Shown piece by piece: positions 36,808 to 53,330 of a stretch of DNA of 64,000 nt. The notes under the pieces are model-generated. The model was not told where the DNA came from, ran no database searches, and worked only from the letters and a program-made list of their open reading frames with translations. The stretch is from Nocardia goodfellowii (GTDB lineage: Bacteria > Actinomycetota > Actinomycetes > Mycobacteriales > Mycobacteriaceae): NCBI RefSeq assembly GCF_017875645.1, contig NZ_JAGGMR010000001.1, positions 4,402,001 through 4,466,000 on the forward strand, in the 5' to 3' direction. Within the stretch, counting starts at the first letter, position 1, and every line of letters begins with the position of its first letter. The position numbers and the translations under genes were made by a program.

Positions 36808-37968
36808 TCAACCCGTTGAAGCGGGTGCGGGGTTAGCCTGTTTGTTGGGTCCGGGTTGTGGCTTGTCCGAAGGATCGGTGCTCGGGTTGGAGCCGGTCGC
36901 GCTGGAGTCAGTAGTCGTCCCCGATTGCCCTCCCGGGCCCGCCAATTCACATCGCTGTTGATCGGCGAGCATGCGGGTGTAGACGACGTTGGAGAGTCGG
37001 CGTTTGAGTGCGCGCATCGCTTCCATCGAGGTTTTCCCGCCCGCTTTGCGGGCGTCGTAGTAGACGCGGCCGGCGGTGTGGTTGCGGAGTTGAACGATGG
37101 CCATGATGTGGAGCACGCGGTTGATTTTGCGGTTGCCGGCGCGCGAAAGTCGGTGCCGTTGCTGATCTCCGGAGGAGGCGTCCAGGGGCGCGGTGCCGTT
37201 CCAGGACGCGAACCGGTCGCGGCTGGCGAAGCGGTGGATGTCGGCGGTGTCGGCCAAAAGCCTTGCCGCCGAAGAGGGTTCGATTCCGTGCAGATCCATC
37301 AGGGTGGAACCGCGGTCGATGATCAGCTGGCGCAGTTCTTTGTCCGCGGCCTTGGTCTTGCGGTCGATGGTCTCGAGTTCCTCGATCAATTCGATGACCA
37401 GCCGCAGCTGGACGCGGCCGACTGGATCGCCTGGTCGCAGGTCTGCGATCAGGTTGCGGGCCTGGGGTGCGGACAGGAATTTCTTGGCGCCGCCGGGGAT
37501 CAGTTCGAGCAGGATGCGGTGGATGCGGTTGAGGGTTTCGGTGCGGGCGCGTCCGAGTCCGTCGCGGCGGTCGGCGAGCAAGCCCAGCGCCACCAGTTCT
37601 GGGTCGGCGGTGACCCGGCGCAGGTTCGGTGCGTGCAGGGCGGCCAGAGCGACCGAGTGTGCGTCGACGGCGTCGGTTTTGCGGCCGTTGCCGGTGGCGA
37701 AAACACGCACTTGCGCGGAAAGTTTCGCGGGGATGTCGATGACGGTTTCGCCGTTGTGGACCAGCCGGTGGGCGAGGTGGCGGCCGATGCCGTTGCAGCC
37801 CTCGATCGCCCAGGTCCGGTCGGTGAATCGTTGTCCGGCGGTGAGCATTTCGGTGTAGCCGAGGATGTCGGTGGTGTATCGCCGGACCGCCAGTATCCGT
37901 CCGGTCGGGTCGATGGCTTCGATGGTGGCCGAGCGTTTGTGTGGGTCCATGCCGATGATGACGGTCAT
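36808..37968 (-). CDS. IS110-family transposase
   Basis: 386 residues. The DEDD N-terminal domain begins VIIGMDPHKRSATIEAID (Asp), has AIEGCNG (Glu) and RKTDAVDAHSVA (Asp pair). The C-terminal transposase_20 part has LHGIEPSSAARLLA and FASWNGTAPLDASSGDQQRH with the conserved Ser. GGAAGGA precedes the ATG at 37968. It looks intact. IS110 enzymes insert without classical inverted repeats and are guided by a bridge RNA from the element's own non-coding end. Confidence 0.9.
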   Translation of the reverse strand: MTVIIGMDPHKRSATIEAIDPTGRILAVRRYTTDILGYTEMLTAGQRFTDRTWAIEGCNGIGRHLAHRLVHNGETVIDIPAKLSAQVRVFATGNGRKTDAVDAHSVALAALHAPNLRRVTADPELVALGLLADRRDGLGRARTETLNRIHRILLELIPGGAKKFLSAPQARNLIADLRPGDPVGRVQLRLVIELIEELETIDRKTKAADKELRQLIIDRGSTLMDLHGIEPSSAARLLADTADIHRFASRDRFASWNGTAPLDASSGDQQRHRLSRAGNRKINRVLHIMAIVQLRNHTAGRVYYDARKAGGKTSMEAMRALKRRLSNVVYTRMLADQQRCELAGPGGQSGTTTDSSATGSNPSTDPSDKPQPGPNKQANPAPASTG

Positions 37969-38180
37969 CGGTGTCCTTCCTGCTCGCTGTGGATGGTGTC
38001 CGTGCGAGGAGGGCACCGCTACTTCGAGCCGGGGCAGACCCCTTTCCAGCCACTCCCGCACGGCACCCCGTGAGAGGCAAGCCAGAAGAGAGCCACACCG
38101 ATCACGCTGGCGGGCAGCCGCTGTAAGGGAGCATCTCACCGGGCACCTGAACCAGATCCTGGCCGGGACCCGGTCCTGAC
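37969..38180 (-). ncRNA. Putative IS110 bridge-RNA region
   Basis: About 200 bp upstream of the transposase start, within the expected non-coding end of an IS110-type element. For the IS110 group the bridge RNA is transcribed from this side. I could not define its loops or the element ends from sequence alone. Confidence 0.35.
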
Positions 38181-38305
38181 ACCAGTCTTAAGTAGCCGCT
38201 GTGCGCTCGGTTGGCGGATGAGATCCGCTGCCGCTCAGGACATCCGAACATGCCGACGTGCGCGCATCATCTGCGGTGAGCAGTTCGGGAATCGTTGTCC
38301 CCGGA

Positions 38306-39388: not shown

Positions 39389-39542
39389 GGCTTACCGCCG
39401 ACATTTCCCGTTACCGATCCCGGTGGAATGCGATACTTTTCGAGGCGGGGTAGCGCCGGGCAATGGATCACGGTGGTGTAGACCGTGACCTGCTGTGACA
39501 ACGCTCGACGTTCGACCACGAGCAACGGCCGGGAGCCACGGG

Positions 39543-41087
39543 ATGGAACTGAGCATCTTCAAGATCCCACGAAATTCGTTGGAGGCACTTCGCGCACGTC
39601 TCCAAGACAACGGCTATACGTTGATCCGCGCATACGCTGACAGTGGATGGGATTCGGAATTCTGGTTCGAGGAGGGCGAGGATGCCGTTATGGGGTGGGT
39701 GAAGCGGTACGAGTCGTTCTTCCAGAACCGGGAAGTTCCCACCAGGAAGGAGCATGCGGGCCTGCACATCTTCCACCACGACTCCTCGTGCTACGCCGTG
39801 TCCTATGGATCAGGCCACCACCAGGCCCGGTCGCTGTGTGACTACGAGTTCGGTCTCGACTTAGCCAAACGGATCGCCAACGAACGCGATGTCAAGCAAA
39901 CCGGGACGAAGCGGTCCCACAGCGTCAGGAGGAGGGAGAGCCGGGTCTACCGGTCGCACACCTACCTCGACATCGAGGGCGGCGAGTCGATCGACCAGAT
40001 CCGTGCGGCGATCATCGCATCGAAGCGGGAAATGTACGGCTCGGTCGGCAGTTTCAGCGCCGCTGCCGCCCTGTCCCCGCCTATCGACATACCAGGAATC
40101 CCCGCGTTTCTGTCGGCTATCGAGACGGAACTGAAAAACCCGGAACAGTTCAGTCTGCCCCGGGAAAAACCGGTGAAGGACAAGCAACTGCTGGCCGTAC
40201 TGGACGACCTCCTCCTCGATGCTATTCTCGGAGTCGGCGACCAGGGTGAATTCGCCACAAATAGCTTGGATCTGTGCGATGCCGACTTAAACTCCCTGTT
40301 TGGAAAGCCCGGGAAATATGACCTGAAAGCTCGCCACAAGAAGTCGATGCTGTTCCCGGAGAAGGGTTTCGACCACGACCTCACCGTCGCAGACCTCCGC
40401 CTTTACATAAGTTCCCGACAACTGACGCGCGACGAAGTATTCGCCATAGAGATCACACGGTTTACGGACGGCGGTGACTGGTACAAGCCGCACCTAACCT
40501 TGAAACAGGCCCTGGAATACACGGTCGACTCGCACAGGGCGACACTGTCCGGCGGGGTCTGGAAGCAATTCAACCAGGACTACCTGGCTTTCATCGATAA
40601 GTACGTGCGGGAAATCAAGGTCGAGCCGACCGAGGAGATTTTCGAGGTGCTTACCGGAACAGAACCGTCATTCAATGATTCCAATCAGGTCGGCGGGGCG
40701 GGTTACAAGAAGGCCGACAAGGATTTCAGTCTGGCGGTTATCGCGTCCGGAACACCGGTCGAAGCGTGGGACCTGAGCCTCGAAAAGACCGTGTTCGCCG
40801 TTAAGTTCGGCACCGCACAGAAGCTCGGCTATGTCTGCGACCAGGCGACAACGGTCCTGGAACTCATCCGGAACAATGCCACCGTCACCGACCTAGCCAA
40901 ACCTGAACGATACTGCCTGTGGCTCGGCTACAAGGCGAAGAAGCTGCCCGCCAACATCGCCGACATCAAATCGGTCATCCTGAAGCAGAAGATTGCCGAC
41001 TGGGCGAAGCTGTGCCTCGACGTCGGAGTTGTCCCGGTCATCAAACTGAGTAGGCACGCCGGAAGCGACCCGACGCTGAGCTTCTAG
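39543..41087 (+). CDS. TIGR04141/DUF6119-like sporadically distributed protein
   Basis: 514 residues. The opening MELSIFKIPRNSLEALRARL and the central LYISSRQLTRDEVFAIEITR, KPHLTLKQALEYTVDSH and late SLEKTVFAVKFGTAQKLGYV resemble the TIGR04141 (DUF6119) family, which I recall as patchily distributed and often near phage-defence genes. Codon use is less GC-biased than in its neighbours, a sign of recent transfer. It sits alone in an island of remnants. Its biochemical role is unknown. Confidence 0.72.
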   Translation: MELSIFKIPRNSLEALRARLQDNGYTLIRAYADSGWDSEFWFEEGEDAVMGWVKRYESFFQNREVPTRKEHAGLHIFHHDSSCYAVSYGSGHHQARSLCDYEFGLDLAKRIANERDVKQTGTKRSHSVRRRESRVYRSHTYLDIEGGESIDQIRAAIIASKREMYGSVGSFSAAAALSPPIDIPGIPAFLSAIETELKNPEQFSLPREKPVKDKQLLAVLDDLLLDAILGVGDQGEFATNSLDLCDADLNSLFGKPGKYDLKARHKKSMLFPEKGFDHDLTVADLRLYISSRQLTRDEVFAIEITRFTDGGDWYKPHLTLKQALEYTVDSHRATLSGGVWKQFNQDYLAFIDKYVREIKVEPTEEIFEVLTGTEPSFNDSNQVGGAGYKKADKDFSLAVIASGTPVEAWDLSLEKTVFAVKFGTAQKLGYVCDQATTVLELIRNNATVTDLAKPERYCLWLGYKAKKLPANIADIKSVILKQKIADWAKLCLDVGVVPVIKLSRHAGSDPTLSF

Positions 41088-43068: not shown

Positions 43069-43139
43069 TGTCAGCGCTCTTCCAATACCCGGCCACTGGC
43101 GCTCTTTGAAAAGTAGGCCACCCATCCACCATCGGAAGG

Positions 43140-44366
43140 GTGATCTCAGTGCAAGATTGGGCGCAGATCAGGTATCTCCACACCAGCGAGGGCCTGTCCA
43201 GGCGGGCGATCGCGGCCCGCTTGGGCCTCTCACGCGACACGGTCGCCAGAGCGATCGCTTCGGAGTCGCCACCGAAGTACGAGCGGGTCTCGGGGCCCTC
43301 GGCGTTCGATCCGTTCGAACCCCACGTGCGGGCACTGCTGACGGAGTTTCCGTCGATGCCGGCCTCGGTGATCGCCGAGCGGGTCGGCTGGTCGGGATCG
43401 CCGTCGTGGTTCCGCAAGAAGATTGCCGATCTTCGCCCGGAATATGCGCCGAAAGATCCCGCCGACCGCCTCGAGTATCGGCCCGGTGATCAAGCTCAGT
43501 GTGATTTGTGGTTCCCGCCGACTCGGATTCCGTTGGGCGCCGGGCAGTTCGGGGCACCACCTGTTTTGGTGATGGTGGCTTCGTTCTCGCGGTTCATTAC
43601 CGCGATGATGATCCCGACCCGCACCACCGCCGATCTCCTGGCCGGAATGTGGGCACTGCTGTCAGGGCAGTTGGGGATGGTTCCCCGAAGACTGTTGTGG
43701 GACAACGAATCCGGCATCGGCAAGGGCGGACACTTAGCGACCGGGGTGAGCGCGTTCACCGGGATGTTGGGCACCCGGATTGTTCAGTGCAAACCGTTCG
43801 ACCCGGAATCGAAGGGCATCGTCGAACGCGTCAACGGCTATCTGGAAACCTCGTTCCTGCCCGGACGAGCCTTCGCCTCACCGGCTGATTTCAATTCTCA
43901 AGCGGCTCAATGGATTCCGATCGCGAACACGCGCCGGGTTCGGCGCATCGCTGCGGCACCGGCGGAGCTGATCGGCACCGACCGCGCCCGCATGACCGCG
44001 TTGCCGCCGATCGCGCCGACGGTCGGGTTCGCCGGGCAGGCCCGGCTCCCGCGCGACTACTACCTGCGTGTTCTGGGCAACGACTACTCGATCGACCCGA
44101 CCGTGATCGGCCGGATGATCGATATCCGCGCCGATCTGAACACCGTCACCGCCCGCTGCGACGGATTGCTGGTCGGCTCCCACCGGCAGGCTTCGTCGAA
44201 ACAGCGAACCATCACCGACCCCGCTCATGTCGATATCGCTGCCAGACTGAGAGAAGCGTTCGGGCACAAGCCATCTCACCACGAAAATTGCGACGGACTG
44301 GTCCGCGATCTCGCCGACTACGACGCCGTGTTCGGTGTCGATTTCGACGACACCGGGGTCGCGTGA
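43140..44366 (+). CDS. istA: IS21-family transposase IstA
   Basis: 408 residues. The N-terminal HTH is LSRRAIAARLGLSRDTVARAI. The DDE catalytic core shows Asp in AQCDLWFPP, Asp in RLLWDNESG and Glu in GIVERVNGYL, and the C-terminal MuA-like domain has YYLRVLGNDYSIDP. GTG start with GGAAGG upstream. The stop overlaps the istB start (TGATG). It is full-length, so transposition may still be possible. Confidence 0.93.
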   Translation: MISVQDWAQIRYLHTSEGLSRRAIAARLGLSRDTVARAIASESPPKYERVSGPSAFDPFEPHVRALLTEFPSMPASVIAERVGWSGSPSWFRKKIADLRPEYAPKDPADRLEYRPGDQAQCDLWFPPTRIPLGAGQFGAPPVLVMVASFSRFITAMMIPTRTTADLLAGMWALLSGQLGMVPRRLLWDNESGIGKGGHLATGVSAFTGMLGTRIVQCKPFDPESKGIVERVNGYLETSFLPGRAFASPADFNSQAAQWIPIANTRRVRRIAAAPAELIGTDRARMTALPPIAPTVGFAGQARLPRDYYLRVLGNDYSIDPTVIGRMIDIRADLNTVTARCDGLLVGSHRQASSKQRTITDPAHVDIAARLREAFGHKPSHHENCDGLVRDLADYDAVFGVDFDDTGVA

Positions 44367-45154
44367 TGGCCGCGCCGAGCGACACCGCCAAGCAGATCGA
44401 GTACTACGCCAACGCCTTGAAAGCGCCGCGGATCCGTGACAGCGCCGCACGGCTGGCCGACCAAGCCCGTGACGCCGGCTGGACCCACGAGGAATACCTC
44501 GCCGCGGTCCTGTCGCGGGAAGTATCGTCGCGCGAGTCCTCCGGCGCCGAAATCCGTATCCGCGCAGCGGGATTCACTGCCCGCAAAGCGATCGAGGAGT
44601 TCAACTTCGATCACCAGCCCGCTCTCAAACGCGACACTATCGCCCACCTGGGCACCGCCCAATTCATCGCCAAAGCCCAGAACGTGGTGCTGCTCGGACC
44701 GCCTGGCACCGGCAAAACCCACCTCGCGATCGGGCTCGGCATCGCCGCCGCCCACCACGGCCACCGCGTGTTGTTCGCCACCGCCGTCGAGTGGGTCACC
44801 CGCCTGCAAACCGCCCACCAACAGGGACGTTTGGCCGCCGAGCTGGTCAAGCTGCGCCGCTACGGGCTTTTGATCGTCGACGAGGTCGGCTACATCCCAT
44901 TCGAACAAGACGCAGCGAACCTGTTCTTCCAATTGGTCTCCAGCCGTTACGAACACGCGTCATTGATCTTGACCTCGAACCTGCCGTTCTCCCGATGGGG
45001 AGACGTGTTCAGCGACCACGTCGTCGCCGCAGCCATGATCGACCGCATCGTCCACCACGCCGACGTGTTGACCTTGAAAGGCAACAGCTACCGACTCCGC
45101 AACACCGAAATCGACACACTCCCATCCACACGAACCGACAACACGGCAGACTAG
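44366..45154 (+). CDS. istB: IS21-family ATPase IstB
   Basis: 262 residues. Walker A is LLGPPGTGKTHLAIGLG and Walker B is GLLIVDEVGYIPFEQD, followed by LTSNLPFSRWGDVF (sensor 1). IstB is the DnaC-like AAA+ helper that drives target selection for IstA. It begins in a TGATG overlap with istA and is complete. Confidence 0.93.
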   Translation: MAAPSDTAKQIEYYANALKAPRIRDSAARLADQARDAGWTHEEYLAAVLSREVSSRESSGAEIRIRAAGFTARKAIEEFNFDHQPALKRDTIAHLGTAQFIAKAQNVVLLGPPGTGKTHLAIGLGIAAAHHGHRVLFATAVEWVTRLQTAHQQGRLAAELVKLRRYGLLIVDEVGYIPFEQDAANLFFQLVSSRYEHASLILTSNLPFSRWGDVFSDHVVAAAMIDRIVHHADVLTLKGNSYRLRNTEIDTLPSTRTDNTAD

Positions 45155-46388: not shown

Positions 46389-47153
46389 CTAATTGCACAT
46401 GGCACGGAGCTCGGGTGTGCGTAGGTACGCCTGTACGCCATGGAAGGCGAGATTGCCGATGGTTAGATCTGGAATGTCTTCCACCCCAGCGAATGTACGT
46501 CCGAGGCCGCCTCGTGGAACGGCCACGATGTCGCCGACGTCAGCCAGATTGACCCAGCGCTGCACACCCGGCGGGCGGGCACGGTCCGAGGGGTCCAGCC
46601 GATCGAGCACCACCCCGGGCATTGCCAGAGGACTGCCGACTGTGATCAGGAGATCAACGGACAGGTGCGGGTTTTGCCAGAGCGTCTCGTAGGCTACGAC
46701 GCTGCCTAGCGAGTGCGCCACGACCGCTGTCGGTTTGATCTCGGTGATAGCCGCAGCGACGGTGGCTCGCGCCGCCGTTCTCCGTGGCGAATCCGCCTTG
46801 GCCAGATACGTGTGCACCTCGCGGCAAAACAGCACCGCGAGTCGGCGCGCGGTGTCTCCGTGTTTACGGGTCAGCCAGTCCGACGCTTGCCGGAGGCGCG
46901 CCGTGCGCGGACCTTGCGCTACCGCACCTACCGGCTGGAGTTGGTCCACCCACGCAATCAACATCTCCTGCTCTGCCGGCTCCAGCGTCATCGGGTCGTC
47001 GCTCCCTTGGCCGATGCCGCGCCGAAGGTGCTCGGAGTAGTAGGCCACATGTACCTGTCGCCCGAGCGCATGGCACCATTCCACACTCAGATCGTCGGCT
47101 GTCCTCCCCGGGCGATAGTTGTTTATGCCATGCACTCCCACGATATTGCTCAT
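46389..47153 (-). CDS. Alpha/beta hydrolase coupled to the caspase-STAND protein
   Basis: 254 residues. The oxyanion strand IVGVHGINNY opens the protein; the nucleophile elbow is VVAHSLGSVVAYE (Ser148). Asp205 or Asp208 in VNLADVGDIVAV and His239 in LAFHGVQAYL complete a PGAP1/lipase-like triad. Its ATG overlaps the stop of the upstream 1276-aa gene (ATGA), so the two are made in fixed ratio. It may be the killing effector (a lipase or esterase), a substrate of the caspase domain, or a modulator. These roles are inference. Confidence 0.83.
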   Translation of the reverse strand: MSNIVGVHGINNYRPGRTADDLSVEWCHALGRQVHVAYYSEHLRRGIGQGSDDPMTLEPAEQEMLIAWVDQLQPVGAVAQGPRTARLRQASDWLTRKHGDTARRLAVLFCREVHTYLAKADSPRRTAARATVAAAITEIKPTAVVAHSLGSVVAYETLWQNPHLSVDLLITVGSPLAMPGVVLDRLDPSDRARPPGVQRWVNLADVGDIVAVPRGGLGRTFAGVEDIPDLTIGNLAFHGVQAYLRTPELRAMCN

Positions 47154-50100
47154 GCCGATCCGTCCTCGTTGTAGTGAAATGCGATCAGCTCGCGTTCGGC
47201 GCCTACCAGCAGGTAGCCGTCATCGGTGAGGTCCATGCAGTGCACGGCCCCGGGTACAGTGATCACATACGGAGACCCGATGTCGTCTACGAGCCAGATC
47301 CGAACTGAACCGTCCGCGGCCCCGGTGTACACAGTTGGCCGTCCGTGCAGCGTTCCGGCGCGAACGACAACAGCCACCCCCTTGTGCGCCCCGGGCAGTC
47401 GGATACATTCCGAGGGCGTGACAATGTTCTGCAGCAGGACAACACCTGCGCTTTCGACGCGGATCTCGAATACTCGGTCTCCGATGCACAACGTGCGCTG
47501 GCCTGCCGAAATCTGCGCCTTGTCGGCGAAGCCATCCCAATTGGACGCCCCTAGAACCTTCCCCGTCGACGGATCCCATGCGACGGTCTGGCCGTCGTCC
47601 CAGAACACCCTGCCGAAGGCTTTATCGCCGACACTCTGAGTGCCGAGCATGAACACGGGGGACTGTCCGCTGAACTGCGGTGGCCCGGCTTGGCCCGACT
47701 CGGGATCGACCAAGTATACGGACCCGCCACCGTCTCCGACCAACAAGTGGTGTTTGCGCATCGGCAACGCGCCCTGAGCGGTTTCGCCTATATCCTGGCA
47801 TGCGGTCACCTGTTGAACTTCGAAACCAGGCGGTCGATAGCCGCGAGTCCACCATGTGCTCAATACGCCGTCTTCGTCACCGGAGGCCACAGTCGTGCCG
47901 TTACTGCTGATCGCGATGCAAGAGACTGGTGCGCTGTGCGCTGGTCTCGTCTCGACCGGGGTGGCCGAATCCACGCAATACAGCGACACTATGCCTTCGT
48001 CATCGCCGACGGCGAGCCATTCTCCATCGGCGCTCACCGCCAGTGCCGTTGGAGAAATCCATTCGTGGACGTCGGACTTCCATCTCAGTTCGTTGTTCTG
48101 CATGACCACTACGCGGCCGGTGTTGTCACGGCACGCGAGTGTCTGGCCTCCGGCTGATACGCGAAGCTCAACCGCAGCCGCAGACATTACCTGTATGACT
48201 TGGCTGGTCATTGTTGCCAGATCCCACCGATGGATGGTGGACCCTAGACTGGCGAACACAGCAGGATCGCTCCCCCACGCCACCGCCCAGCAATCTGCGG
48301 TCAGCCCGGTATCGAAACTCCACCACGGCCCATCGCCAGTTTTCAGCCAACCGCTGCCATCGCGGTGCATTACAATGATATTCGCTCCAGCCGGTTCCAC
48401 AGCCAGGGTGCCGACATGCCCTGTCCAGTTCGATTCGATGTTGTCCGGGACGACTTCGACCAATCCGTCGCAGTCGCTAGCAACCGCGAAGCATCTGCCG
48501 CTGCCAGACATGGCTACAATGCCTGCGCCATCGATGGTTAAGGGGATCCGTGTCTGAATCTCCTCGGTGGCGAGCCATGTTGCGACGGTATGGTCCGCAC
48601 CAGACCATGCCAAGGTGAGGCCATCATTGGTTACCGCGATCGATCGGATACCCGAAAAACTCTGTGATTGTAGGGTTTTCAGCGGATTCCAGTAGAAGCC
48701 TTCCCGCGACCATAGAGGTTGCCACGGGAGGGACCGGGACGTCCGCTTTGCCAGATCCTGTGCACCCACACGTGCGGCGGCTAGTGCCAACGAATAACGC
48801 GTCGGGGTTTGGTCCAGCGTGCGAACGAGCTCGATCAATGATTCCGGTGCCGCAGCGCATCCTGACAGCCGTTCCACGGTACCCGGCAGAAGCAGAAAGC
48901 CCGGGTCAGAAAGGATCTCGTGGCTCCGGCTGCCGGCCTCGGCCAACACATGCTGCAACACATACGGCTCGGCGGCTGCCCAGTCGCGGTCGTTTGTGGG
49001 GCCCAGTGGATCGAGCATCGAGTCGAGTAGATCGGCGGGCTGCCACAGGTGATCGACGAGAGCCTGGTGAAACAGCCGGTATACGGTGGTTCCGTCGACG
49101 TCGGATGACTGCCGAATATAGAACTTTGCCTCGGTCAGAGCCTGACGCACCTCCGCCAGCGAAATTTTCTTACCTTCACAAAAGCAAGCAGCGATTCGGG
49201 CGAGCACGGTGACCGGCATGCCCTGCTCGCGTGCGCGTGCAAGCGCGGTGAGAACCGGCCGTACAAATGGTTGATCTGCGCGCGCGGCAAGGTCGATCTC
49301 CAGCACGCTTGGAAGGGAGTGCGGCACCGCTCTGCCCAGTCGTAGGGCCGCGTCGGCCGAAAGTGTACGAGCATCAGGAAATGAGCTAACGAGGTGTCGG
49401 GTGTAAAGGCCAGCGACCAAAAACGGGCCCCCGCCGTGCAGGCAGGAAAGTATGCGCGCCACCTCTGCGGCGAACGCTCCGACGGCGCCGCCACCAGACT
49501 GCCTATAGCTAGCGACTGTCCGCAGCAGGGTGGTGACGTACTTGTAGAGGTCCTCCTCAAGAACGTCTACTGTCACCTCGTCCAGGTCGTAGAGCTGATC
49601 TTGTTTCTGGGCGAGGTCCAACAGCGGTCGCAACTGACTATAGGGGCGAAACCCAGCCAACAGGCGGGCCACGGGACCGCCGTCGGCCCGCTCAGACTTG
49701 GCGAGCGGCAACAGGAACTCATGGAGCACCGCCATCGGGTTCTGAGCTTCGTCCACAGCGTCCACAACGATCACTGGCGGCGGCTTTTTGCTGGAACGCA
49801 GTTGCCGCAACAAATCCTCCATCCCTCGGCCTTCGTCAAGACCGAGCTGGTTGGCGACCGACCGGACGATCGCTGCGACCCCACGCTGTCGTGCATGGAC
49901 GGCCGCGAGGTTGTCCACCTGGTATGGCGTGCGTTCGACGTCGTCCCAGAGCATCTTGGTTGGTCGCCGCAGAACCGGGTGAGCTGCACAAACCATAATT
50001 CCCAGCAGGGCGGATTTACCAGCACCGGGACTGCCCGTGACTACGCAAATACCCCCGGCTCGGGGCTGATCCATCCACGCCGACAGGCCGACCAGTTGTT

Positions 50101-50980
50101 TCTTGCGCCCACTGAAACAACCCACCATCCGGTCGGTCAAGCGGCCGATACCGGCAGCCCGATCCAGAAAATGTCGAGCGTCGAGGCCCTCGTCCAGTTC
50201 GTCCAGGAACGGACGAAGCCCCGGGTTCAGCCCGGCTCTCATCCAGGTGTGCTTGTTGTCCGTGTATCCGACGTTCGCGAAGAAGTGCAGTTGCGGGTCC
50301 GTACTGATGTCCTGGAGGGTCGCGGTGACCGTTTGGCTGTAGGAGTCGGCCTCGACAGACAGCCGCTGGACCTCCTGTCGTAAGGCGCGGGCAACAGTGG
50401 TCACAGGGACATAGCGCATGGTCGCATCGACATCGAACTCGTTAGCCCGCAACCCGTTCAACACGGCGACCAGCGCTTGACTGAACCGGCCGTCATAGGC
50501 GGCCTGGTCTGGCTGGCAGGCAGCAATCACCCATCCCCGGGTCTGGTCGGCGTCGATGCGGTACTGCCACGGCAGTCGTGCCGCAGTGCCGGAGTAGCAC
50601 AGATCCAGCAAGAACAAAGTGCGTAGTCCGCGGAGCTGAACGTATTTCAGCCACTGGTCCACGTCGAGTGCCGGATCCTTCACCCCATCCGAACCCAGCA
50701 CGTAGACGGTGCCGTCACCTTCGGCGAGTTCGCCGTGGCTGAGCACATGCACGATCAGTAGATCATCTACGGCGCACGCCTTCATCACATCGACGATCCG
50801 GGCCCCGACCTCGGCGGAACTCATCGTGTCGGCTAGAACCTCAACAACCTCATAGTCGATCTTCCGCAGCGCCGTCGACACCTGGCTGACCAACTCTTGG
50901 GCGAACGCCAGCTCAACCATTCCAGCGTGGTTGCTGACGCCGATGCTGATTGCCTTCAAACGACGTTCGCGATCAACCAA
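47150..50980 (-). CDS. Caspase (C14) - NTPase - WD40 protein
   Basis: 1276 residues in three parts. Residues 1-240 are a caspase-fold peptidase: LLIVHVLSHGE holds catalytic His82 and LFLLDLCYSG holds Cys128. Residues 270-700 are a STAND/NACHT-like switch with Walker A TGSPGAGKS (315-323) and Walker B VIVVDAVDEA (403-412), then a helical part. From about residue 790 to the end are WD40-like beta repeats (LTLAWSGADHTVATW, GTTVASGDEDGVLSTW, TVYTGAADGSVRIW). The start is TTG with AAAGGAG 8 bp upstream. The plan matches bacterial conflict STAND proteins: repeats sense, the NTPase oligomerises, the protease fires. Coupled to the hydrolase gene. Confidence 0.9.
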   Translation of the reverse strand: MVDRERRLKAISIGVSNHAGMVELAFAQELVSQVSTALRKIDYEVVEVLADTMSSAEVGARIVDVMKACAVDDLLIVHVLSHGELAEGDGTVYVLGSDGVKDPALDVDQWLKYVQLRGLRTLFLLDLCYSGTAARLPWQYRIDADQTRGWVIAACQPDQAAYDGRFSQALVAVLNGLRANEFDVDATMRYVPVTTVARALRQEVQRLSVEADSYSQTVTATLQDISTDPQLHFFANVGYTDNKHTWMRAGLNPGLRPFLDELDEGLDARHFLDRAAGIGRLTDRMVGCFSGRKKQLVGLSAWMDQPRAGGICVVTGSPGAGKSALLGIMVCAAHPVLRRPTKMLWDDVERTPYQVDNLAAVHARQRGVAAIVRSVANQLGLDEGRGMEDLLRQLRSSKKPPPVIVVDAVDEAQNPMAVLHEFLLPLAKSERADGGPVARLLAGFRPYSQLRPLLDLAQKQDQLYDLDEVTVDVLEEDLYKYVTTLLRTVASYRQSGGGAVGAFAAEVARILSCLHGGGPFLVAGLYTRHLVSSFPDARTLSADAALRLGRAVPHSLPSVLEIDLAARADQPFVRPVLTALARAREQGMPVTVLARIAACFCEGKKISLAEVRQALTEAKFYIRQSSDVDGTTVYRLFHQALVDHLWQPADLLDSMLDPLGPTNDRDWAAAEPYVLQHVLAEAGSRSHEILSDPGFLLLPGTVERLSGCAAAPESLIELVRTLDQTPTRYSLALAAARVGAQDLAKRTSRSLPWQPLWSREGFYWNPLKTLQSQSFSGIRSIAVTNDGLTLAWSGADHTVATWLATEEIQTRIPLTIDGAGIVAMSGSGRCFAVASDCDGLVEVVPDNIESNWTGHVGTLAVEPAGANIIVMHRDGSGWLKTGDGPWWSFDTGLTADCWAVAWGSDPAVFASLGSTIHRWDLATMTSQVIQVMSAAAVELRVSAGGQTLACRDNTGRVVVMQNNELRWKSDVHEWISPTALAVSADGEWLAVGDDEGIVSLYCVDSATPVETRPAHSAPVSCIAISSNGTTVASGDEDGVLSTWWTRGYRPPGFEVQQVTACQDIGETAQGALPMRKHHLLVGDGGGSVYLVDPESGQAGPPQFSGQSPVFMLGTQSVGDKAFGRVFWDDGQTVAWDPSTGKVLGASNWDGFADKAQISAGQRTLCIGDRVFEIRVESAGVVLLQNIVTPSECIRLPGAHKGVAVVVRAGTLHGRPTVYTGAADGSVRIWLVDDIGSPYVITVPGAVHCMDLTDDGYLLVGAERELIAFHYNEDGSA

Positions 50981-51901
<921 letters not shown>

Positions 51902-52372
51902 TTGCCCGACCCGTCCACCGCCAAGAAGATCGCAGCGACAACTCTGGTCATGACCGGACTTGCCGCGCTTTCCGCAACCTTCGCTCCCGCGGCGAACGCG
52001 ACCAATGGAGTCGAGGCAAGCATCAGCAGTCCATCCGCGGGAGCGGTAACTCTCAGTTGGCGGGTCTACCTTCCCGCAGGTAGTACCGCGGCCTGTGACA
52101 TGGCCATCGAGAACAGTGCCAACACCGCCGGCACGTACCGAGAATTCGATTACTCTGCTATCGGAGGCTCGGCCAATCACCAAGGGCGATGGATCAGTAA
52201 CTCGCTCCAGGCTTCGGCTCCCGCGGGCAGCACCGCGTCCGGCGATGTCTATTGCACATTCCTGAACCCCAGCGGCGAGGCAACCACCGGCGGATGGCAG
52301 GGCAGCACAATGGTGAGGCTCCCGATCAAGGGAGGCATTCCGACGATTCCGCCCGGCGGCGCGGTGGGCTGA
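51902..52372 (+). CDS. Secreted hypothetical protein
   Basis: 156 residues from a TTG with TAGGAG about 6 bp upstream. The signal sequence AAKKIAAT... ends in PAANA, a good signal-peptidase I site. The mature part has two Cys (AACDMA, VYCTF), probably one disulphide, and beta-rich sequence (TLSWRVYLPAGSTA, STMVRLPIKGG). Not recognised; likely a small exported beta-sandwich protein. Confidence 0.7.
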   Translation: MPDPSTAKKIAATTLVMTGLAALSATFAPAANATNGVEASISSPSAGAVTLSWRVYLPAGSTAACDMAIENSANTAGTYREFDYSAIGGSANHQGRWISNSLQASAPAGSTASGDVYCTFLNPSGEATTGGWQGSTMVRLPIKGGIPTIPPGGAVG

Positions 52373-52670
52373 GCCGCGCGGCCTGCCGGCCGCGTGGGAA
52401 CAGCAGTGCAGGTTCCGCGGACAGCGATTAAACGTCGAACCTGAACTCCCGCGTGGGGAAATGGCACTTCGCGACCATCCACCGTGTCGAAGTTGTCGAA
52501 CAAGCACTGGTCTCCGTCACCCAGGCATGGCAGTCGAGCAGCGGTGTCGCGGTGGCCCAGCAGCCTCCACGCCGAGGCAAAGCCGAAATGAGCGCGGTGT
52601 TTGGAATACCTTCTGGCGAAGGAAGAAACGAGGCCGCCGATTGTCGGTAATAGCTGCCATCATGCACGGT

Positions 52671-53330
52671 ATGGCGACTTCCGATCCGTTGGCCCTGTTC
52701 TACTGGCTCAACGCCGACGACGGCAAGACTGCCGACTGGGCGAGATCTTCACCGTGTCCTTCTTCCGCGGACTTGACCCGTCGGAGGTGGTACGCCGCTT
52801 CAGCCGCGGCGAGGACCACGGCCGGGAATCGGCCTTCGATGAGCTTATGGAGCAGGCCGGCGATTCCTCCTCGAGAACAAGTGAGGGACGCGCCGTGGGT
52901 GTTTGGCAGGCCGGTGAGTGGAGCGTGGCGATCGAGCCGTTCGGGTGGATGGCCACGCTCCCCGATGTCCTGGCTGAATTGTCGCGTGATTGCGAGGTAG
53001 TGGCCATCACTCACCACGCGTACGCCGAAGACATGTTCGCGTACGCGATCGACGGCAGGCTCGTCACAGGCTAAAGCCCCTTGCATTGCCCTCACATTCG
53101 ATTCGGCTCGGAGCCCGACCGGCTTTATGGGTTCATGCGGGAACTCGGTATGGACCTGGATATGGAGGAAGAGGAGCGTGACTGGGACGGCGAGGATGAC
53201 GGGGATGATGACGACATCGACTTCTTTGCTGCCTTGCCGGCAGCTTTCGCCTTGGCCGCGCAGCTCACTCAGGTGCGGTTCGCACCGGAAATGCTTGATC
53301 GTGCGATGCTCGTCGGGCCTGTCGCGCCCC
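52671..53330 (+). pseudogene. DUF6461-like gene, frameshifted copy
   Basis: It starts MATSDPLALFYWLN in one frame, continues GEIFTVSFFRGLDPSEVVRRF and WSVAIEPFGWMAT in a second, stops after DGRLVTG, and resumes as SEPDRLYGFMRELGMDLDMEEEE and APEMLDRAMLVGP in a third. It aligns throughout with the intact protein at 26967-27644. At least two frameshifts have broken it. Confidence 0.8.

Follow-up and report, generated by a model that had tools for sequence, protein, structure and literature searches.

We analyzed two genes within a stretch of 64,000 nucleotides of the Nocardia goodfellowii genome (hereafter the window; assembly GCF_017875645.1, contig NZ_JAGGMR010000001.1, positions 4,402,001 to 4,466,000): one encodes an immune-receptor-like protein (the receptor) that joins a caspase, a STAND NTPase and WD40 repeats in one chain, the other an alpha/beta-hydrolase. 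In our sample, the association of the hydrolase with such receptors tracks the caspase domain and not the NTPase or the WD40 part. The recurrence of the pair in many actinobacteria suggests that receptor and hydrolase work together, perhaps as a self-destruct switch.

The receptor and hydrolase genes

Both genes lie on the minus strand. The receptor gene (47150..50980; 1276 aa) begins with a TTG at 50980 that stands 8 nt downstream of AAAGGAG, and its stop codon TGA overlaps the start codon ATG of the hydrolase gene (46389..47153; 254 aa) in an ATGA at 47150..47153, which couples the two genes (junction sequence GGCATGAGC). Residues 1-245 of the receptor (50246..50980) match the caspase family PF00656 with 30.5 bits (Pfam cut-off, 21.4) and contain the dyad His82 (codon 50735-50737) and Cys128 (codon 50597-50599). 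The caspase region was matched by 119 of 120 listed receptor homologues, window protein counted in (exception, P0123), a set that is biased because its search words were drawn from the first 500 residues. Among these 119 proteins, position 82 is His in 117 (2 gaps) and position 128 is Cys in 118 (1 gap); the dyad is complete in 117. With a C14 domain and this His/Cys dyad, the N-terminus is, judged from its sequence, a caspase (peptidase C14).

The STAND NTPase and the region that follows it (residues 246-760; 48701..50245) contain Walker A at residues 316-323 (K322) and Walker B at residues 403-411 (D407), and both residues are conserved in 120 of 128 aligned stretches and gapped in the other 8. 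This region matches NPHP3_N above its cut-off (26.9 vs 24.8 bits) and AAA_16, AAA_22 and nSTAND1 below theirs. The remainder of the chain (residues 761-1276; 47153..48700) is a WD40 beta-propeller region (PF00400, 41.6 bits vs 27) and putative sensor. The predicted layout, with an N-terminal effector, a central P-loop NTPase carrying Walker A and B and a C-terminal repeat sensor, is that of STAND proteins and NOD-like receptors (NLRs).

The hydrolase presents Ser148 (codon 46710-46712), Asp205 (46539-46541), Asp208 (46530-46532) and His238 (46440-46442), all invariant in an alignment of 49 rows including its own. Either D205 or D208 may be the catalytic aspartate, as both are invariant. By its fold and its Ser-Asp-His set, the protein is an alpha/beta-hydrolase; PGAP1 (PF07819) matches it slightly below the cut-off (23.2 vs 24.3 bits). 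The sequence-only reading of this DNA had announced both open reading frames (ORFs) and their coordinates, the ATGA overlap, the intact caspase dyad, the Walker motifs, the WD40-like repeats and the Ser/Asp/His set of the hydrolase, and all of these were recovered.

The receptor is present as a single copy in its own genome (E 1e-5), and a homologue with 87% identity is found in Nocardia sp. CA-135398. Compared with its relative from Kutzneria (L011), identity is 73% for the caspase, 63% for the NTPase (computed from one piece, as this NTPase is split over two ORFs), 44% for the WD40 region, the lowest value, and 75% for the hydrolase. In neither of the two proteins is there a convincing membrane segment, the hydropathy averages over 19 residues peaking at 1.6 and 1.67. 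A search of the genome with PF00656 returned zero matches and missed even the caspase of the window, so that it is uninformative on further caspases. At six loci (L083, L137, L139, L177, L178 and L181), the receptor is split at about the same position into a caspase-NTPase chain and a chain with the NTPase tail and WD40 region; at L137 and L181 the hydrolase is placed between the two halves.

Association of the hydrolase with the caspase

We searched for receptors using a caspase-STAND alignment (A2) that was picked regardless of the hydrolase. At E 1e-30, 17 of 298 genomes of the order had a match (18 matches in all); for the class, 10 of 394 genomes did at 1e-60 (12 matches), and for one family of the order, 20 of 346 at 1e-100. 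From these three sets 44 regions were fetched (16, 11 and 17, respectively), leaving aside the window itself, present in both the order and class sets, and a 144-codon match with a stop in the order set (G168). We observed that the hydrolase adjoins the receptor in 35 of the 37 fetched caspase loci. One of the two misses runs into a contig end (L112) and the other is a true exception (L142). The family set was chosen for its known receptor hits, with hydrolase loci also known there, and is therefore not fully blind; without its 17 regions the count is 18/20. The sequence-only reading had named absence of the hydrolase beside orthologues of the receptor among the results that would count against it, and the opposite was found.

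A trypsin-like N-terminal domain was detected on the same type of STAND-WD40 chain in 7 of the 44 regions (five by Pfam, all seven by a profile made from those five). None of these seven receptors has the hydrolase beside it. In six of them (L117, L118 and L120-L123), Trypco1 is encoded directly upstream (two identified by Pfam; phmmer, queried with one of these, identified all six). One genome (G049) carries both the caspase and the trypsin versions. The association thus follows the caspase, which fits the proposal that the caspase processes or licenses the hydrolase. One could also imagine two parallel effectors, a single sensor deploying caspase and lipase with no mutual action and linkage keeping their doses equal, and related conflict systems are described as sharing several effector domains (Kaur et al. 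2020, PMC7159879, as far as that article was covered). We consider this improbable: the hydrolase goes with the caspase and not with the shared NTPase chassis, and the sequence of its loop varies with the caspase subtype (see below), suggesting direct contact.

Two expectations were rejected. The first was a pairing of the hydrolase with the STAND core irrespective of the effector domain: 119/120 homologues still match the caspase region, and the kinase, PP2C, DnaJ and Hsp70 names among them reflect added domains in those inspected. True effector swaps, to trypsin, surfaced in the order-wide search. The second was that the hydrolase is restricted to this one genome in its genus: 12 of 35 genomes of the genus gave a weak match (best, 1.0e-15 in G034), and the match in G034 (L004) is followed by a caspase-STAND ORF.

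We also examined the neighbors of hydrolase relatives. The hydrolase alignment confirmed at least 482 relatives in genomes, and the best 80 of these were kept; they represent the closest hydrolases, more distant ones being outside the sample. This set and the previous one overlap in genomes (e.g., L011/L179 and L012/L165) and are not independent samples. A receptor ORF (caspase, STAND or WD40) was found within 2.5 kb in 40 of the 80 loci, in four gene arrangements; 39 loci have no receptor ORF and one (L022) has a fragment further off, at 5.7 kb. Divergent-caspase and trypsin profiles matched none of the 40 unlinked loci. Mapped onto a tree of 81 hydrolases, the label "linked" needs to change 5 times, relative to a mean of 27.2 when labels are shuffled (0/500 shuffles as low), and 37 of the 40 unlinked hydrolases form two clades: one of 33 dominated by Streptosporangiaceae (support 100/100) and one of 4 from Amycolatopsis. 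Acrocarpospora catenulata holds both kinds, with one solo locus (L041) and two linked ones (L018 and L046). In the four solo hydrolases of Amycolatopsis (L023, L028, L029 and L031), the catalytic His position is occupied by Gln (4/4); from its sequence, this clade may be enzymatically dead or repurposed.

Five unlinked loci were scanned for neighbors. Two have PhoD, one has PIG-L, a polyprenyl synthetase and an amine oxidase, one has GlnE and PfkB, and one an HSP90-like ATPase. The latter (HATPase_c_3) follows the solo hydrolase at the Herbidospora locus (L042 8829-10622, plus strand), and PhoD is the neighbor at L057 and L080 instead. Metabolic neighbors where scanned, together with the 33 Streptosporangiaceae and 4 Amycolatopsis loci that have a related hydrolase and no receptor, would fit a reading in which the pair is a developmental or lipid-homeostasis regulator of mycelial actinobacteria instead of a defence or death module. 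We regard this as very unlikely, since the pair presents traits typical of conflict systems: a patchy receptor distribution (17/298 genomes of the order at E 1e-30), nearby insertion sequence (IS) elements, a WD40 region that diverges fast relative to the Kutzneria protein, and exchange of the protease type.

A loop motif and the proposed mechanism

Linked and solo hydrolases differ at a motif, Q-G-x2-T-x3-R (residues 80-88; 46890..46916, minus strand). G81 is present in 41/41 linked hydrolases vs 0/37 solo ones, and R88 in 40/41 vs 4/37. The solo group of this count omits three hydrolases of unclear linkage, all with G81 and R88: L030 lies at a contig end, L022 has the receptor fragment mentioned above and L016 has no receptor fragment. 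In the receptor-based set, 26 of the 27 hydrolases beside a canonical caspase have both G81 and R88 (L140 has R88 alone), and 7 of the 8 beside a divergent caspase have neither and present [TA]PxxxQ there instead. The model of the hydrolase is otherwise very confident; of its two least confident loops, one precedes the motif. In the simplest reading, the motif is where the caspase would contact or process the hydrolase. Because R88 sits in a predicted helix, docking is no less probable than cleavage, and a structural role is about as probable.

The motif is also compatible with a hydrolase that acts as a brake or resetting partner and not as the killer: it would bind the caspase with its QGxxTxxxR loop, perhaps serving as a decoy substrate, and silence the receptor, or reverse an acyl modification. 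Both the tight coupling of the genes and the conservation of the loop motif fit an inhibitor no less than a substrate, and the small protein Trypco1 in the partner position of 6/7 trypsin versions suggests that the partner slot may be regulatory. However, all four residues S148, D205, D208 and H238 are kept in 41/41 caspase-linked hydrolases, and 34 of the 35 members of the receptor-based set align all four (L144 has no letter at 238). Their conservation in all 41 linked members argues for enzymatic use of the hydrolase, and they would be needless in a pure binding partner. We therefore consider a brake unlikely.

Our preferred reading, held with moderate confidence, is that the two genes form an NLR-like conflict module. 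We observed the domains and active sites, the conserved pairing, its dependence on the caspase within the sample and a motif that varies with the partner. By analogy with other STAND/NLR proteins, the WD40 region, the fastest-changing part relative to the Kutzneria protein, would sense a trigger; the STAND NTPase would then assemble in an ATP-dependent manner and the N-terminal caspases would be activated by proximity. We infer that the caspase would next bind, and perhaps cleave, the co-made hydrolase through the QGxxTxxxR loop, and that the hydrolase would serve as the downstream executing enzyme, most likely a lipase that would attack lipids, of the membrane or otherwise, and thereby kill the cell or arrest its growth. 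The two-gene death module proposed by the sequence-only reading is thus partly supported: it gains a pairing that tracks the caspase and a candidate contact motif, and protease action, death and phage defence remain conjectural parts of it. More tentatively, actinobacterial NLR-like receptors may possess a caspase-to-lipase relay with a dedicated loop, QGxxTxxxR or [TA]PxxxQ in the second subtype, that is kept with the caspase and lost without it, and through which a membrane-destroying enzyme would be switched on.

Several observations weigh against this module. One caspase-STAND locus (L142) lacks the hydrolase, and a search of its genome at E 1e-5 gave no match elsewhere. The trypsin loci are phylogenetically narrow, all seven coming from a single family and six of them from a single genus, and the Fisher p of 9e-7 for 35/37 vs 0/7 is for that reason too small. 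The majority of solo hydrolases (33/37) retain an intact Ser-Asp-His set; therefore, the enzyme can function without an adjoining caspase. About two independent losses underlie the contrast at the motif, which may in part reflect common ancestry; linked and solo hydrolases also differ at positions 12, 49, 50, 57, 179, 207 and 210. R88 lies within the predicted helix 83-98, and one hydrolase beside a divergent caspase (L119) has G and R in columns 81 and 88, with Q and T absent. Distances between hydrolases and between caspases co-vary over 44 pairs (r 0.68), but nearest neighbors agree in the two matrices for only 19/44, and the sequences suggest that partners may sometimes have been reassorted. 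Finally, fold comparison of the hydrolase gave 26 rows at most 1 Z unit from the best one, esterases included; "lipase" is a fold-level guess, because esterases, KAI2-type and RBBP9-type hydrolases score within about one Z unit of lipases.

Genomic surroundings and relation to known systems

The gene pair had been placed in an island of IS elements and pseudogenes. The IS part of this description was borne out, on one side of the pair, by an IS110-type transposase (36811-38187) and IS21 istA/istB genes (43110-45154). Between these lies, near the receptor, a DUF6119 protein (39489-41084, plus strand; 73.3 bits vs cut-off 27). A DUF6461 protein (52601-53071, plus strand) is encoded near the receptor gene on the opposite strand, and the two upstream ORFs (51061-51588 and 51610-52023, both minus) have no Pfam match. 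An uninterrupted run of 30 G (51370-51399, plus strand) is located upstream of the receptor gene; it is the sole run of at least 15 in the window. Both a phase-variable tract and an artefact of sequencing are conceivable.

Published systems were compared with the pair on the basis of the covered portions of the articles cited. The closest precedent is given by the VMAP ternary systems, in which a VMAP with a caspase always has a neighboring alpha/beta-hydrolase gene and trypsin versions are frequently neighbored by Trypco1 or Trypco2 (Kaur et al. 2020, PMC7159879). The caspase and neighboring alpha/beta-hydrolase are shared with the window pair and with 35/37 caspase-STAND loci, so that this feature is not confined to VMAP. 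In contrast to the MoxR-vWA-VMAP ternary set, caspase, NTPase switch and sensor are here in one chain and the system has two genes. VMAP membership was rejected: VMAP-C (PF20028) had no match in the genome at E 1e-10, and none in the window proteins scanned with Pfam. We had also expected the same hydrolase at VMAP loci, which was rejected: among the 20 loci fetched first, each the head entry of a different genome in the list, only one had a weak match (L219), and none matched the caspase or divergent-caspase profiles. Across 49 VMAP genomes, a weak relative of the hydrolase lies within about 7 kb of three VMAP loci, one of them with a VMAP-M18-caspase protein (L222, where the adjoining hydrolase is weakly related to that of the window; E 6e-11).

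Metacaspase-NACHT-WD40 proteins are widely distributed and have the same domain order as the window receptor, but no alpha/beta-hydrolase partner gene is mentioned in the covered part of that article (Asplund-Samuelsson et al. 2012, PMC3501461). In EACC1-caspase systems, the caspase stands at the N-terminus and the C-terminal domains vary, STAND NTPases being among them (Kaur et al. 2020, System 4). The receptor matches the NCBIfam model caspase_w_EACC1 weakly, with 30.7 bits, far under the cut-off of 140, and the two upstream ORFs show no Pfam match where a 5' EACC1 gene would be expected; membership was rejected. Avs and bacterial NACHT proteins share the layout of effector, STAND NTPase and repeat sensor (PMC10907252), but differ from the caspase domain and separate lipase-like partner of the window system, and PADLOC returned no Avs-named match, its two matches being HEAT-ARM_XIII, in the WD40 region, and a weak mad8. 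Some fungal NLRs with a sesB-like lipase domain possess WD40 repeats (PMC4986451). They likewise use an alpha/beta-hydrolase with NOD-like receptors, but as an N-terminal domain of the receptor, whereas here a coupled gene of its own encodes it and the receptor is fused to the caspase instead.

The protease/partner rule for VMAP (Kaur et al. 2020) and metacaspase-NACHT-WD40 proteins (2012) were thus already described. What is new is that the caspase/hydrolase and trypsin/Trypco rule also applies to STAND-WD40 receptors made as one chain, together with the loop motif. In the literature searched and in the covered portions of PMC7159879, PMC8195603, PMC3501461, PMC10907252 and PMC4986451, we found no published account of a hydrolase partner of caspase-STAND-WD40 receptors, of the trypsin/Trypco1 exchange on that chassis or of the motif, and the source data of Kaur et al. 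may list STAND cases. Joint action of bacterial caspases and alpha/beta-hydrolases has been proposed from gene neighborhoods (Kaur et al. 2020, PMC7159879), and we found no biochemical test of such cooperation in the covered parts of that article or in the literature searched.

The compact, ATGA-coupled two-gene version and its nine-residue candidate contact make the idea of Kaur and colleagues directly testable. Bacteria also possess a caspase-gasdermin pair, of which the relay, if true, would be the lipase counterpart. It would further imply a modular rule, in which the same STAND-WD40 chassis takes either a caspase with a lipase or a trypsin with Trypco1. If this is right, a lipase would join the enzymes and pores thought to be switched on by bacterial proteases, in parallel with the lipase domains of fungal NLRs.
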